A program made the position numbers and the translations under genes. The notes under the pieces were generated by a model, which made no database searches, was not told the origin of the DNA, and saw nothing but the letters and a program-made list of their open reading frames with translations. Shown one piece after another: positions 5,993-48,663 of a DNA stretch of 64,000 bases. Numbering within the stretch: position 1 is the stretch's first letter; each line of letters begins with the position of its first letter. This stretch comes from a bacterium (GTDB lineage Bacteria; 4484-113; JAFGCY01), in the NCBI GenBank assembly GCA_016932385.1, contig JAFGCY010000063.1, positions 37,116-101,115 of the forward strand, written 5' to 3'.

Positions 5993-6092
5993 TGAATTGG
6001 CTGCTAAGTTGTCCGATTCTTCCAGTGATTTCCCGCAGTCCGCGCGTTGCCGGTGGCAACAAATGAATTAATTATCAATATTAATTTGTACC

Positions 6093-6190
6093 CAATTCAC
6101 GATTTAATGCTGCTAACTGTGGCTTGCTTTCGGTTATTTCCCATAAATAGAGGAACGTAGCAGGACGGCTGTAAGTCTAATCGTGAATTG
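6093..6190. repeat. 12-bp perfect inverted repeat (CAATTCACGATT/AATCGTGAATTG) enclosing nested CTGCTA/TAGCAG arms, in an AT-rich intergenic region
   Basis: Direct reading: outer arms 6093-6104 and 6179-6190, inner arms 6110-6115 and 6158-6163. Confidence 0.7.
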
Positions 6191-6308
6191 ATATAAATGT
6201 TCTTGACGCCTGATTCAGTCTAATTATTTAATCTATCTTAATTTTAAATAAGTTTCGCAAATCTGGTTATAATTCATTTAGCCAATAACTTGCTATTCTG
6301 GAGTATTT

Positions 6309-7733
6309 ATGGGGATTGTGGACCTATTCAAGGAGCATCGGGTACTGCGTAGTGAGGTGAGACAGTTAGCTGAGCGCTGTAACAGCATAACATCACTGGT
6401 TCGGGGCAAGGAAATTATTGAGCCAATTACCATCGGGGGCGCATTGGAACACACGGCGGTTGAAACGTATCACGCCCATGCCGTTCATGTGGCCTCTTAC
6501 CATCTTGATACCAGCTTGGATACGGCTGCGGATCAAGTCAATACGCTAGTAGCGACCAACGAAGAGATCAGCGCGGCGGTGCAGGATATGAACACCGGAG
6601 CCGAGAAGCTGACGGAACAAACCAGCGAATTGCGTGAGGCGATCGCGACCGGCAATCAAGCGCTGAAACTCTCGGAAGAGGCGAACCAATCGATCTCGCA
6701 TGTGATTAGCTCTATGCAGACCAAAGTGACAGCGCTGGCTTCGCAGATCGAGCAGGTCGTCCAGATTATCGAGTTGATCGATGGAATTGCCTCCCAGACC
6801 AACCTGCTGGCGCTGAATGCCGCCATCGAGGCGGCCCGGGCCGGTGACGCCGGCCGGGGTTTCGCCGTGGTGGCCGAGGAAGTGCGTTCGTTGGCCGAAG
6901 AGACCCGCCAGCAATCCGCGCAAATCTCCAATGTGATCAGGCAGGTGGGTGCCGATTTCAAAGAGGCGGTGGATGTCTCCAGCGGCGCGACCTCGGCGAT
7001 CGATGAAGCGAACAAGGCCAATGCCGATATCCGTCAGATCTACGACGGGCTTTCCTCACTGGGCAATGAGGTCGACGAGCTGATGCAGCACATCATGGCG
7101 CAACTGGAGGAACAACGGGCCGCGATCGAGAGCATGGTCGGTGCATCCCAAAACCTGGCGGGATTCATCGATGAAACGCGCGGCGTGGCCCAGTATCTCA
7201 GCGGTGCCAGCGAGGAGACGACCAAGAACACGATCGAGCTGTGGCGCAGTCTGCAAACGGTGGAGGACTCCACGCGTCAGTTTATCCTGGACCGGATCAT
7301 CGATCACGCGATGTGGATGAAAAAACTCGCGGACGCCCTGAGTTCCGGCAATCACAGCGTGGACCTGGCGGATCACCACCAGTGCAAGCTGGGGCGCTGG
7401 TACTCCAGTCCCGAAGCCAAGGCGCTGGCGGCCCACGGAGGCGAGTTGGGCCGCGTGTTCCACGCCATCGCGGGACCGCACGCCGAGTTGCACACCAAGG
7501 GCCTGGACGCGATCCGGCTGGCCGCCGCCGGCCATCACAAGGAAGCGCAAGCGCTGAAGATGGAGGCGTTGGGTATCAGCCGCGACGTGGTGGACCTGCT
7601 CGTCGAGTTGGCCCGGCACGTCAGTGAAAATGAAACCAGTATTGACCGGGCCTTGGCCGAGATCTGGAATTCCACCAGCGATGACCAGGCCACCGGACCG
7701 CAGGCAAAACAGAAAACCGCCGTCGCAGACTAA
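6309..7733 (+). CDS. Soluble methyl-accepting chemotaxis protein with C-terminal CZB (zinc-binding) domain
   Basis: [42 protein letters not shown] hairpin tip; CKLGRWYSS and surrounding His residues (CZB); no TM segment apparent. Confidence 0.93.
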
Positions 7734-7768: not shown

Positions 7769-7804
7769 CCGGCCCGCAGGATGCTTTCCCGCGGGTCGGT
7801 TTTT
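7769..7804 (+). terminator. Rho-independent terminator after the MCP gene
   Basis: CCGGCCCGC/GCGGGTCGG 9-bp stem followed by TTTTT. Confidence 0.8.
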
Positions 7805-7807
7805 AGT

Positions 7808-7836
7808 AAAAAACCCCGGGGACGGGCCCCGGGGCG
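7808..7836 (-). terminator. Rho-independent terminator of a minus-strand transcript
   Basis: On minus strand CCCCGGGG-CCCGT-CCCCGGGG followed by TTTTTT. Confidence 0.75.
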
Positions 7837-8066
7837 TAGTTCCTGCATCCCCTCCGGCCTGGACGCTGGTCCCAGACTGGAGGGACACACATCCATGTTT
7901 GCCGGCCGTGCGATTACACGCCGGGGATGGTATGACCGAAATGCACTGTCCGCGCGTGAGCGCTGAACCTTCGCGCGTTGGGAGCTTGCCGGGGGTCCGG
8001 CGCATCGGCTGATCGAATGCAAATGTGGCTGGTCATACTCTCCTACTCCTCCCTGAGACGGAGACA
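7808..8066 (-). ncRNA. Candidate structured non-coding RNA (about 260 nt), family not recognised
   Basis: Minus strand: TTGCAA-N17-TAGACT promoter-like elements at 8100-8072; helices GUAUGACC/GGUCAUAC, CCCUCC..CUGG/CCAG..GGAGGG, GCCGG-ACCC-CCGGC; strong terminator at 7808; no convincing ORF. Confidence 0.5.
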
Positions 8067-8071
8067 TAATT

Positions 8072-8100
8072 AGTCTACCGGAAATTCGGGCGGTTTGCAA
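8072..8100 (-). promoter_or_regulatory. Sigma70-like promoter for the candidate ncRNA
   Basis: TTGCAA (-35), 17-nt spacer, TAGACT (-10) on the minus strand. Confidence 0.45.
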
Positions 8101-8276
8101 TGCACGCTTTACGGTATGCGGACGGTATAATTAGATGCTTCTGTAGTTGGGCTGATCGAGCCTGCTGCAATCCTTGGCCCAAGGATTGCGGGTTCTTGCT
8201 CATAGGCAGCACCTGTGTGCATCAACGTTCTACAGCTGATGTCCGGGCTGAACCAACCATTCCATGAGGTGAATGC

Positions 8277-10133
8277 ATGACGGCAACCGCCACCAGTGGT
8301 GCCGGAACCATCGGGTCGAGCCCACATTTGTTTCATATCCCAGTGATGGGCACGGGGTTTACGATCGACACCCCGCTGAAGGTGGCGCGGTACGGGATTG
8401 ACTCCGTCGTGTCTCTGCTGGACGATCATCTGATCGAGCAGATACGCGAGTATCACAGCGCCAAAGCCGGTGATGCCTACGAGCCGATCACCACCAGAGC
8501 GGCTGACTATCGCGCGCGCCGAATCAGCGCTTATCTCGACTTGCTGCAGGTCCAGGTTGAGCGCCAGACGGAGGCCCTGCGCAACAGCGATTTCGTCGCG
8601 GGCTCGGAGATCACACGCTACTTCGAACTGCTGCCGGATGGCCCGTTAAGCCAGCTGTACAAGAGTATGCTGGCGGAAGCCGATCCGCGGCTGAAGGCCG
8701 ATCTACAGGCCAGGTTGCGGCGCAAGGTTGTCAGCGGCAGCATTGACGTCAATATCATGACCAAGGCCGACAGCCAGGCCTATCAGAAAGGTGCAATGGT
8801 GCCGCAGGAGCAATCCGTGGCCCACTCCGCGCTGCGCGGATATGCGCTTAGCCACCTCGACAATTCGGCCGTGGTCTTCTCGGCGGGATTGAACCAACGG
8901 TTGTATGCCTACGCGGCGCAGTTCGCGGACTTCTTTCCCGACCAGCACGGTCACCTGAAAAAACGTATCATCATCAAGGTCAGCGACTACCGCTCCGCCT
9001 TGATCCAGGGTAAGTATCTGGCCCGTTTGGGGCTCTGGGTCTCGGAATTTCGCATTGAATCAGGCTTGAACTGCGGTGGACACGCGTTTTCCGGCCGCGG
9101 CTCCCTGATGGGGATTGTCCTGGCCGAGTTTAAAGCCCGGCGCAAGGAACTCAAAGAGCGGTTGCTTCAGGAATGCAACAAGGCGCTGGCCGCGGAGGGA
9201 CGGCCTGTTTTCAACACCGAGCCCGCGTTGCGGATTACGGTGCAGGGCGGGATTTGTACGGCCCGCGAGCAGGATTACCTGCGCAAAGTCTGGGATGTCG
9301 ACAGCGTAGGCTGGGGCACGCCGTTTTTGCTGGTGCCCGAAGCGACCAACGTGGACCGCGACCATCTGCGCAAACTGGTCCAAGCGTCGGAGCGGGATGT
9401 TTTCCTCAGCGACAGCTCCCCCCTGGGCGTGCCGTTTTGGAACCTGCGCCAGTCGGCCAGCGAGCAGGCTCGGCGCCGGCGGAACCAGGCCAACAACCCG
9501 GGCAGCGCGTGCCCTAAAGGCTTTGCCAAACTCAGTACGGAGTTCAGCGACGAGCCCTTGTGCCCGGCCTCGCGAAGCTATCTGCGGTTGAAGCTGGCGC
9601 AACTGGACGAGACACCGATGCCCAACTGGCGCCGCCGGATGCTCAAGGACCAGGCGCTGGCGAAAGCGTGTATCTGCCATGACCTGGCGGGTGGAGCCAG
9701 CTTGCTGTATCAGTTGGATCCGACCGCCACGCCGGCGATCTGCTGCGGGCCTTCGATCGTCAACTTCAATCGGGTGGCAAGCCTGGATGAGATGGTTGGG
9801 CATATCTACGGCCGGCTCTCGATCCTGGGCAACCAGCGCTATGTCAATCACATGTACCGCGAGGTCCAGCTCTACGTGCAGGTTCTGCGCCGCGATGTTA
9901 TCCGCTGCGCCCGCGGCCTGCTGGGTGTCCGGCCGACGCAGTTGGAGTCCGAGCGCCAGAGCCTGATCAGCCAGATCAGGCAGTACCGCGAGTTTTACAC
10001 GGAACTGCTGGATGTTCGGAGGGAGAAATACCTGCATGACCTGGAGCAGGCCATTCGCAGGTTGGAGCGAATTCCACTGGCTTCCGCCTTCCGCCGTTGG
10101 GCTCGCCGGCAGGCCTCGGCTTCGAAAGTCTGA
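8277..10133 (+). CDS. Conserved uncharacterised protein, 618 aa
   Basis: HIPVMGTGFTIDTPLKVARYGIDSVVSLLDD, IIIKVSDYRSALIQGKYLA, GLNCGGHAF, TVQGGIC; from memory resembles a long uncharacterised family seen in Bacteroidota. Confidence 0.8.
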   Translation: MTATATSGAGTIGSSPHLFHIPVMGTGFTIDTPLKVARYGIDSVVSLLDDHLIEQIREYHSAKAGDAYEPITTRAADYRARRISAYLDLLQVQVERQTEALRNSDFVAGSEITRYFELLPDGPLSQLYKSMLAEADPRLKADLQARLRRKVVSGSIDVNIMTKADSQAYQKGAMVPQEQSVAHSALRGYALSHLDNSAVVFSAGLNQRLYAYAAQFADFFPDQHGHLKKRIIIKVSDYRSALIQGKYLARLGLWVSEFRIESGLNCGGHAFSGRGSLMGIVLAEFKARRKELKERLLQECNKALAAEGRPVFNTEPALRITVQGGICTAREQDYLRKVWDVDSVGWGTPFLLVPEATNVDRDHLRKLVQASERDVFLSDSSPLGVPFWNLRQSASEQARRRRNQANNPGSACPKGFAKLSTEFSDEPLCPASRSYLRLKLAQLDETPMPNWRRRMLKDQALAKACICHDLAGGASLLYQLDPTATPAICCGPSIVNFNRVASLDEMVGHIYGRLSILGNQRYVNHMYREVQLYVQVLRRDVIRCARGLLGVRPTQLESERQSLISQIRQYREFYTELLDVRREKYLHDLEQAIRRLERIPLASAFRRWARRQASASKV

Positions 10134-10305: not shown

Positions 10306-11106
10306 CTAGCACTTACCGCACTTCTTAGTGCACTTCTTCTTGGTGCAGACCGGACGGTCGCACTCCTTACCCACTACGCGGGTGCTACCGATCATCGGGC
10401 AACCGTCGCCGCAGCCTGTATTGTCACAATCCCAGCAGGCCACGCAAAGCGGGAAGTCGTTCTGGCAACAATCACCAGCGCACAGGTAGCCGCTGTACAT
10501 CGTTGTCCAGTTCGCGAAGTCGAGGTCCTTGACCAAGCAGATCAGATCGTTGCCGATCATCCACAGCTTCTCACCGTACATCGCGAGATCAGCGTAGTTA
10601 CGCTCCTCGCCACGGCCGAGCTCGTCCTCGATGTTGCCGAGCACCTTGGTGCCCTCATTGGCCTTGGTCGCGATACGAGACACGATCTTATCCATGTTCG
10701 GATAGAAGTTGTACGTATCCAGCTCGTCGGTGATCGTGTTGATCTGAACGATCGTCGCGTTGATCATATCGACGTGCAGCTGCCAAGCCAACGGATCGAT
10801 GATGTGCTCATTGCTGCGGCCCAGAACCACGATCTCCGCCTCGATGTTCTCGCGTACGCAGCTCTCCTGGAAGATGAGCCACTCGTAGTTGAAACCGTCG
10901 AGTTGCAAGGACAGACCATGGTCCCGGTACTGGCAAGCCAGATCACTAAGGTTGCGGATGTACTTCACCGCGCTGAACTGATCAACGGCGGAACCAGCAC
11001 CACCTGAAATAGCAGGCATGTGGTCACCGGCGAACGCCGGAGCAGCCAGACCGAGAAGCATGGCAACCATCAGGGCCATCATGATTTTGCGCATTTTTCT
11101 AGTCAC
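10306..11106 (-). CDS. Secreted protein with cysteine-rich C-terminus
   Basis: Signal peptide MRKIMMALMVAMLLGLAAPAFAGD; 13 cysteines within the last ~58 residues, ending CTKKKCTKKCGKC. Confidence 0.85.
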   Translation of the reverse strand: MTRKMRKIMMALMVAMLLGLAAPAFAGDHMPAISGGAGSAVDQFSAVKYIRNLSDLACQYRDHGLSLQLDGFNYEWLIFQESCVRENIEAEIVVLGRSNEHIIDPLAWQLHVDMINATIVQINTITDELDTYNFYPNMDKIVSRIATKANEGTKVLGNIEDELGRGEERNYADLAMYGEKLWMIGNDLICLVKDLDFANWTTMYSGYLCAGDCCQNDFPLCVACWDCDNTGCGDGCPMIGSTRVVGKECDRPVCTKKKCTKKCGKC

Positions 11107-23730: not shown

Positions 23731-23967
23731 CGTCGATGACCCTCCAGTTTTTTCAACTGAACGTACACAGCTGCGCCGCCCAGTTTTGAACGATTGCATA
23801 CCTTACCACTTTTCCGGGCTTTTGACCATACAGATACTTCTATTGGGTATGTAAAGCAGGGCTGGTCATTCCCGTTGAACGGCTGGGATTACCAGCCGTC
23901 CCAGCAGAGCGTGCGCTGGCATGTTAGTATATGGCGGCGCCGGTTCAACCGTCGTCAAGGAACTCGT

Positions 23968-24648
23968 ATGAACAGAACTAGCATTGCGTTTATGATCCTG
24001 TTGGCTGTGTCCGTGCTGGCCGTGCCGGCGCGGGCCGAAATTTCTTTACTGGAAAAGGGACAGCTCCGGTACGGTGAAAGCATCCTGGATTTCAATGAGC
24101 AGTTGAACCGCAACGAGGAAGACTTCATCGTGCAGTTCCGGATCGACACGCCTTCCACCAACGAGATCGCCTGTATCTACAACGAAACCGAGTTCTACCA
24201 TGCCCGGTTCTATCGCGGACAGTGCTATTACATCGAGCGCCGGCAGGAGCTGCCCGTCGAGGAAGTGCCGGTGCTGTTCGAGCAGTTCGGCGAGACCTAC
24301 GGCGAGACACCCGAGGTTACGCAGAGCCGCGACCAGCATCTCTGGTACGCGCGCTGGATGCTGAAAAACCGCGAGATCGAATTGACGGCCTACAGCCGGA
24401 CCGACGAGTTGTTCTTCGTCAGTTACACCGAGTTCGATCCCCTGCTGCTGGGTGAAGCTCTGTACGTCCAGGAGCAGGAGGTTCAGGCGGGGGCGGTGAT
24501 CGACCCGATCACCGGCCGGGCCCAGCTGCAGGAGAGCACGGAAGGCCAGGAAGGCCAAGCGGAGGGCGATCAGGACACGGAAGCAGACGATGACGATTCC
24601 GAGGAAGCGGTGCCCGAGGATCCCGTCGAGGAAGACGACTGGTATTAA
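23968..24648 (+). CDS. Secreted hypothetical protein with acidic C-terminal tail
   Basis: Signal peptide MNRTSIAFMILLAVSVLAVPARA; tail EADDDDSEEAVPEDPVEEDDWY. Confidence 0.75.
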   Translation: MNRTSIAFMILLAVSVLAVPARAEISLLEKGQLRYGESILDFNEQLNRNEEDFIVQFRIDTPSTNEIACIYNETEFYHARFYRGQCYYIERRQELPVEEVPVLFEQFGETYGETPEVTQSRDQHLWYARWMLKNREIELTAYSRTDELFFVSYTEFDPLLLGEALYVQEQEVQAGAVIDPITGRAQLQESTEGQEGQAEGDQDTEADDDDSEEAVPEDPVEEDDWY

Positions 24649-46598: not shown

Positions 46599-47327
46599 AT
46601 GAGCACAGTCGTCAAGGGCATCGTCCTGGCCGGCGGCACGGGCAGCCGGCTCTATCCGCTGACCAAGGTCACCAACAAGCACCTGCTGCCGGTGGCCAGA
46701 AAGCCGATGATCTTCTACCCGATCGAGAAGCTGATGGGCGCGGGCATCGAGGAGATCCTGATCGTGACCGGCACCGAGCACATGGGCGCGGTCGTATCGC
46801 TGTTGGGCAGCGGCCGCGAGTATGGTTGCCGCTTCACCTACAAGGTGCAAGACGAGGCCGGCGGCATCGCCCAGGCGCTCGGCCTGGCCGAGAACTTCGT
46901 GGGCGGCGATCGGATGTGCGTGATCCTCGGCGACAATGTTTTCGCCGATGAGATCGGTCCGGCGGTCGAGCGCTTCGCCGGCCTGCCCGCGGATAGCGCC
47001 TACGTGTTCCTCAAGCGCGTGCCGGATCCCACCCGTTTCGGGGTGGCCGAGGTGCGAGACGGGCGCATCGTGGGCATTGAGGAAAAGCCGGCCCAGCCGA
47101 AAAGCGACCTGGCGGTGACCGGTATCTACATGTACTGCGCCGAGGTGTTCGACATCGTACGCACGCTCAAGCCCTCGGGGCGCGGCGAGCTGGAGATCAG
47201 CGATGTCAACGACCATTACGCGCGCGCCGGCCAGCTAAACTACAGCGAGTTGAGCGGCTGGTGGACCGATGCCGGCACCTTCGAGTCGCTGGCCCATGCC
47301 GGCGAACTGGCCGCGGAATTGGAATAA
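46599..47327 (+). CDS. Sugar-1-phosphate nucleotidyltransferase (RmlA-like)
   Basis: GIVLAGGTGSRLYPLTKVTNKHLLPVARKPMIFYPIEKLM; GDNVFAD. Confidence 0.93.
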   Translation: MSTVVKGIVLAGGTGSRLYPLTKVTNKHLLPVARKPMIFYPIEKLMGAGIEEILIVTGTEHMGAVVSLLGSGREYGCRFTYKVQDEAGGIAQALGLAENFVGGDRMCVILGDNVFADEIGPAVERFAGLPADSAYVFLKRVPDPTRFGVAEVRDGRIVGIEEKPAQPKSDLAVTGIYMYCAEVFDIVRTLKPSGRGELEISDVNDHYARAGQLNYSELSGWWTDAGTFESLAHAGELAAELE

Positions 47328-47356
47328 AAAATAACGGGCGGCCGGAGCCGCCCGTC
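47326..47356 (-). terminator. Rho-independent terminator downstream of the minus-strand gene
   Basis: ACGGGCGGC/GCCGCCCGT stem followed on minus by TTATTTTTTATT. Confidence 0.75.
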
Positions 47357-47382
47357 GAAGTCATCCAGTTTATTGTTCGAAC

Positions 47383-48663
47383 TTACTCGAACACGCCGGA
47401 CTGGGCCAGGCCACACGCGGCCAGCCCGCCGTAATAGACCATGTACTGGCAAACGGCCTTCTTCATCTCGATATCCACCGTGTAGCCATTGCCGTAGCTC
47501 GTCATCAGCGTGAAGTGGCCGAGCGCATCGGAACCCGGCAGATTGACCAGGTAACCCATGCCTTCCCACGGCAGCTCGATGCCCTCACCCAGTTGCTCGG
47601 CGGCCATCCGGCCCGCCGGCCCGATAAGCTGCTCCTGGAGCGCCTCGACGTTCATGTCGAAGTACATCTGGCATGGCTCGAGATCCAGGCCGCCCTTGGC
47701 CAGCGCCATCTTCATGTTGTCGCGCGTGGCATCGATGTTGCTTGTAACCACGGCCATGTCGTCGGTGAAGATGATGCCGATGGTCTCCTCGCCATTCACG
47801 ACGAAGTACTGCCAATCGTCACCCTCGTACTCGCGCTCCAACAGGCCGATCTCCGCGCCGAAGCCCGTCACCATGTCCATCACGGCCTCGCGGTCGCGGA
47901 CGCCCAGCATCACCGCGGCCTCGATGTCCGCGGGCTCGATGTCGCCCAGCACCAGCTGCTCGAACGGCGGCAGGTTGTACAGCACGATGCCCAGCTCGCC
48001 GGTCAATAGCGCGTTGACCGTTTGCTCGATCGGGAAGGCGTCCAGCAGGGCGAAAACTTCCTCCATGTCGTTTAGGTCCATGTCCGCGTCGACGCCCAGC
48101 TCGGAGGTGAATTCCTTCACGAACTCCGTGCTGCTCTTCATCGACTTGAGCTCGATCATCATCATTTCGGGCACGTTGTTGACGCCGACATAGAGCAGTT
48201 GCGTACCGGGGACGTACTTGGCCGTGGCCAGCTCGCGGTCCTCCAGCGCCATTATCTGCCCGTAATAGCACTCTGGGTCAAGATCGCTGAAGAAGTCCGA
48301 CGCCGTGAAGGTAATGTCCTCGCCGGTGATCTCGTACTCCGTATGGCAGCGATCGATGTTGAATAACCCGAGCGAGTCCAGGTAACCGGCGACACTCACG
48401 ACCTCGGGGAAGCGGCCCAGCATTTCCGGGTTGGTCAGCACTTCGTGCAGCCGTCCCATGAACGGCCCAATCTCCAGGTCCTGCACGTAATACTCTTCCC
48501 AGTACGACGGCAGCTCGGCGCCATCGCGATCCCCGCCGCGGTCCAGCGGGCGGTCGCCGGCCGTGATGCCCAGGTCCGGGCGGCGGCTGTCGGTGTCGGC
48601 CAGTGCCAGTACCGGAATAGCGACCAGCACTAAGGCAATAATTAGAAACGCAAACTTACGCAT
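47383..48663 (-). CDS. Secreted hypothetical protein
   Basis: Signal peptide MRKFAFLIIALVLVAIPVLALADT; 427 aa. Confidence 0.8.
   Translation of the reverse strand: MRKFAFLIIALVLVAIPVLALADTDSRRPDLGITAGDRPLDRGGDRDGAELPSYWEEYYVQDLEIGPFMGRLHEVLTNPEMLGRFPEVVSVAGYLDSLGLFNIDRCHTEYEITGEDITFTASDFFSDLDPECYYGQIMALEDRELATAKYVPGTQLLYVGVNNVPEMMMIELKSMKSSTEFVKEFTSELGVDADMDLNDMEEVFALLDAFPIEQTVNALLTGELGIVLYNLPPFEQLVLGDIEPADIEAAVMLGVRDREAVMDMVTGFGAEIGLLEREYEGDDWQYFVVNGEETIGIIFTDDMAVVTSNIDATRDNMKMALAKGGLDLEPCQMYFDMNVEALQEQLIGPAGRMAAEQLGEGIELPWEGMGYLVNLPGSDALGHFTLMTSYGNGYTVDIEMKKAVCQYMVYYGGLAACGLAQSGVFE

Follow-up and report, generated by a model that had tools for sequence, protein, structure and literature searches.

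A short transcription unit on the minus strand, in the gap that separates the MCP gene from the 618-codon gene, is the best-supported statement that can be made for this region. Our tentative reading, the most likely one although held with considerable doubt, is an RNA of about 258 nt that is specific to this lineage and transcribed independently. It would extend from near position 8065 to the terminator at 7835..7813 and most likely act as a small regulatory RNA. Its transcription and its regulatory function are predicted. The features on which this reading is based are located as follows in the window, that is the whole 64-kb stretch of DNA that was analysed.

7769..7799, plus strand: convergent terminator of the MCP gene, 36 nt past the MCP stop codon (window survey)
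7807..8065, minus strand: predicted transcript of about 258 nt, inferred from promoter candidate and terminator
7813..7835, minus strand: intrinsic terminator hairpin followed by TTTTTT (terminator scan, window survey, pair probability)
7842..7929, minus strand: two hairpins, CCGGC-GUG/CAC-GCCGG and CCCUCC-CUGG/CCAG-GGAGGG (pair probabilities)
7914..8036, minus strand: 40-codon open reading frame (ORF) MTSHICIRSADAPDPRQAPNARRFSAHARTVHFGHTIPGV behind the Shine-Dalgarno-like (SD) segment GGGAGGAGUAGGAG (ORF reading, SD survey)
7930..8038, minus strand: domain with the closing helix GUAUGACC/GGUCAUAC and, inside it, the hairpins GCCGG/CCGGC and CGCGCG (pair probabilities)
8072..8100, minus strand: sigma-70-like promoter candidate TTGCAA-N17-TAGACT (sequence and matrix score)

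The strongest single feature is the terminator, which consists of GCCCCGGGG-CCCGT-CCCCGGGGT and a T tract. The hairpin spans 7835..7813 and the T tract reaches 7807. It has a stability of about -19 kcal/mol and a pair probability of 1.0 in the ensemble and is clearly above chance, which provides the locus with an intrinsic terminator of its own, as looked for in small RNA (sRNA) genes. A preliminary description of this DNA had proposed a hairpin-TTTTTT terminator here, convergent to that of the MCP gene, and both terminators were recovered. The terminator, codon and SD surveys covered the 64-kb window and used gene calls from our own codon model (46 ORFs). Nearly all strong hairpin-plus-T sites in intergenic DNA of the window lie 20-104 nt past a gene on the same strand. 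The exceptions are the terminator at 7835..7813, the MCP terminator when read in reverse, and a plus-strand hairpin at 8165-8191. The nearest gene on the upstream side of the 7835..7813 terminator is 442 nt away and on the opposite strand, and the gene calls of the window contain no minus-strand gene upstream of it, which points to a minus-strand transcript missing from the annotation. The stem type CCCCGGGG-N3-8-CCCCGGGG-TTTT is present in one copy in the own genome and in one copy each in the related genomes G002, G003 and G009. In these three genomes it is located close behind an ORF on the same strand; therefore, such hairpins end genes in this lineage, and at 7835..7813 no gene was called. 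Both observations support the reading as an sRNA gene.

The minus strand carries TTGCAA at 8100..8095, a 17-nt spacer and TAGACT at 8077..8072, the promoter motif that had been described previously. It scores 11.5 bits with a textbook sigma-70 matrix of approximate values and is the top minus-strand site of the gap. An equal or better score was reached in 4.7% of the shuffles, and the density of sites as good as this one is 0.22 per kb per strand. It is absent from the list of a stricter consensus scan. We regard it as a plausible but modest promoter candidate, from which the transcript start was placed near 8065. That the top-scoring site of the gap on this strand is suitably placed relative to the terminator supports the sRNA reading, and so does the size of the host gap, which with 543 nt ranks fifth by length among the 25 gaps of the window. 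A standalone unit of minus-strand transcription, as had been proposed, is thus supported by a terminator with no called gene to serve and by a plausible promoter; the attribute "structured" finds no support beyond the folding prediction itself.

It is rather unlikely that no functional transcript exists at all and that the terminator serves as a guard, which would block stray antisense transcription into the MCP and ATP synthase genes, while promoter and helices would be chance occurrences in GC-rich DNA. The modest promoter would fit with this explanation, but the stem type ends genes in the relatives, and a promoter-like site is present at a suitable distance. An antisense RNA to the MCP coding region itself was ruled out, because the transcript ends before this region, the MCP stop codon being located at 7733. 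The encoded MCP protein contains MCPsignal and CZB domains. Upstream of its gene, a gap of 316 nt (5993-6308) has a G+C content of 0.364, compared to 61% G+C in the window, and holds the strong promoter candidate TTAAAT/TATAAT.

All helices named in the preliminary description were reproduced by folding, with pair probabilities of 0.65-1.0 in the ensemble. In the 5' domain, the closing helix GUAUGACC/GGUCAUAC pairs 8038..8031 with 7937..7930 at a mean pair probability of 1.0, as does GCCGG/CCGGC, followed by the CGCGCG hairpin with 0.8. In the 3' hairpins the values are 0.8 for CCGGC/GCCGG, 0.98 for GUG/CAC, 0.65 for CCCUCC/GGAGGG and 0.71 for CUGG/CCAG, and a competing AUCCCC/GGGGAU pairing has a probability of 0.11. 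Without the terminator, the body folds with z = -1.81. Since z averages -0.44 in 284 window stretches of equal size (standard deviation 1.03, 5th percentile -2.14), this is not beyond the range of arbitrary window segments. With the terminator included, z is -3.45 for 7800-8070 (271 nt) and -2.4 for 7806-8058 (253 nt). Sub-domains reach z values of -2.4 to -3.0, with about -3 for 7926-8040, in limits that were picked after folding. The closing helix is at chance level: 30% of shuffles and 41% of equal windows contain an 8-bp perfect inverted repeat of this kind. The most extreme background z values, -4.2 and -4.1, were found at 47250-47467, which takes in a terminator at 47333-47356, and at 23850-24067.

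The structured RNA that had been proposed is therefore not borne out, with the body inside the background range and the closing helix at chance level. A large noncoding RNA of a new structured class, with the fold as its function, is the least likely of the readings considered. The dense helices, the pair probability of 1.0 in the 5' domain, the z value of the sub-domain 7926-8040 and the missing Rfam match speak in its favor. However, the z value of the body as a whole is unremarkable and no relatives, and hence no covariation, were found. A review (PMC8250186) moreover states that single-sequence structure prediction is no evidence of functional structure, as random sequences also give plausible complex folds. 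Long helices come easily in GC-rich intergenic DNA, which calls for caution. A body fold and a closing helix near chance level would also fit with a terminator that only guards the neighboring genes.

Besides the terminator, the statistical standout of the locus is a short ORF led by an SD sequence, which is easily overlooked when seeking a fold and had indeed been overlooked previously. The 5' end of the transcript reads ...GGGAGGAGUAGGAGAGU-AUG-ACC..., and the ORF (8036..7914) stops at UAA after 40 codons. It starts 29 nt past the predicted transcript start, behind GGGAGGAG, and its ATG is located within the 5' arm of the closing helix. SD sequence, start codon and ORF, the combination looked for in small-protein genes, are thus all present. 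Both strands of the 64 kb were surveyed for strong SD cores located 4-11 nt before an ATG with at least 30 open codons. Outside called starts, such combinations occur at 12 places, mostly inside genes and only two of them intergenic; the other intergenic one belongs to an ORF running off the window end.

A short messenger encoding a protein of 40 residues, or a dual-function RNA, is accordingly an alternative, which we consider somewhat unlikely; the lineage-specific sRNA is slightly more likely. In such an mRNA, the 29-nt leader with GGGAGGAG would be followed by the ATG, 40 codons, the UAA, a structured 3' UTR and finally the terminator. The closing helix would bury the start codon only once the downstream half is made; translation would thus start during transcription and hold the 5' domain open. 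The mRNA-like placement of SD core, ATG and ORF favors this alternative, as does the rarity of the combination. An analysis covering 14 bacteria estimated the share of annotated sRNAs with a coding ORF at about 10% or more (PMC5521070), so an sRNA, a small mRNA or both are compatible with the layout. The codon usage, however, looks non-coding: the codon log-odds of -12.6 equals the median of open shadow frames, only 1.9% of equal true-gene stretches are as low, and GC3 is 0.675 vs. 0.81. This supports the sRNA reading. SD sequences are also not general in the window, since only 13 of the 46 called genes have such a core. In protein-level searches, no homolog or family of the 40-aa product, and in this respect no conservation as looked for in small proteins, was found. 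The tblastn matches (E 0.0016-1) in several phyla, many with an internal TGA, at first resembled a shared RNA; after alignment and scan they were ruled out as low-complexity Arg/Ala/Pro similarity. Very unlikely as well is an RNA of a new structured or dual-function type, confined to one unsampled genus in a sparsely sampled phylum, whose 40-codon ORF would lie across a domain that closes on itself, making translation and folding mutually exclusive.

For comparison, the phylum is represented by ten genomes and the genus by one, and the own genome is a draft of 113 contigs with 89.9% completeness. In Rfam scans at gathering and permissive thresholds, no family exceeded its cut-off at the locus and only similarity to the terminator stem was seen, in line with the earlier statement that no motifs of tmRNA, RNase P, SRP or 6S RNA could be recognized. 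The models of tmRNA, SRP RNA and RNase P RNA gave no match at the locus. Some similarity was seen to anti-hemB (Burkholderia RNA 7, RF02837), which shares a CCCCGG...CCGGGGUUUUUU terminator at the 3' end; the score of 24.6 bits (cut-off 49.5) stems mainly from the terminator hairpin, and the aligned upstream hairpins do not match. 6S RNA (RF00013) is likewise a standalone RNA gene in a similar size range, but it forms a rod with a central bubble, whereas the fold predicted here is a row of hairpins. A divergent 6S RNA was ruled out: the genome encodes 6S RNA elsewhere, on contig C87 (14120-14278; 51.4 bits, cut-off 46.4), and the locus is therefore not a missing 6S gene.

A search of the own genome returned the self match only. 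BLAST against 60 genomes, including all nine other genomes that represent the phylum here, matched nothing but the terminator stem, in G002 and G003; these matches were rejected as RNA homologs, because the stem there comes after a protein gene. A relaxed search of the phylum gave only short chance matches. Covariance models built from the single sequence for the 5' and the 3' domain recovered the locus itself and otherwise reached at most 18.5 bits, and they detected no copy beside the relatives of the neighboring 618-codon gene. Plasmids, phages, E. coli genomes and one viral-contig pattern gave no match. With no relatives found, there is no sign of selection, and evolution neither supports nor refutes a functional RNA. 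The lack of conservation would also agree with a terminator that has no functional transcript in front of it.

In its organization the locus resembles orphan bacterial sRNA genes, which generically have their own promoter, stem-loops and an intrinsic terminator. It shares with them the intergenic position, the promoter-like site, the size, the intrinsic terminator and the narrow distribution. With dual-function RNAs and sRNAs containing short ORFs, like SgrS and VcdRP (PMC8672173), it shares the short transcript, the SD-led small ORF and the terminator. This likeness is one of layout, and the ORF differs by its non-coding-like codon usage. As an sRNA, the unit would be transcribed on the minus strand from near 8065 up to the intrinsic terminator at 7835..7813. 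The purine-rich and weakly paired 5' segment GGGAGGAGUAGGAG would precede the GC-rich stem-loops and the terminator tail, and it may pair with pyrimidine-rich segments of mRNAs, its presumptive targets.

On the other side of the gap, a 100-nt cloverleaf was predicted on the plus strand (8139-8238), within the 618-codon gene's leader and immediately past a TATAAT (8125-8130). CUGUAG/CUACAG closes three arms, one of which has a 12-bp stem. Its z is -4.26 and its MFE frequency 0.48, in limits chosen after folding. No Rfam match and no relative in the 60 genomes were found for this element. According to the folding model it is better defined than the fold of the 7807..8065 RNA, and its role could be that of a leader element or of an RNA on its own. 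The gene behind it (8277-10133, plus strand) encodes a 618-aa protein with no Pfam or NCBIfam match. It was probably acquired horizontally, because it is absent from the phylum-mates and similar proteins (43-53% identity) are found in Bacteroidetes, a Planctomycetota MAG and a gammaproteobacterial MAG. A structure model of low confidence (pLDDT 67) shows weak resemblance to FMN-dependent TIM-barrel enzymes, for example FabX, PfaD and nitronate monooxygenase. A gene at 10306-11106 (minus strand) encodes a 266-aa protein with a Cys-rich tail and no Pfam match, and it has the best promoter candidate of the window, a perfect TTGACA/TATAAT pair.

Against the sRNA reading count the promoter below the common consensus threshold, the unremarkable fold of the body and the absence of a relative in 60 genomes. 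We regard the locus as an ordinary candidate for a small RNA or small mRNA specific to its lineage, rather than as an established structured RNA of a new kind. Its expression, if confirmed, would add a further lineage-specific short transcript to a phylum for which ten genomes were compared.
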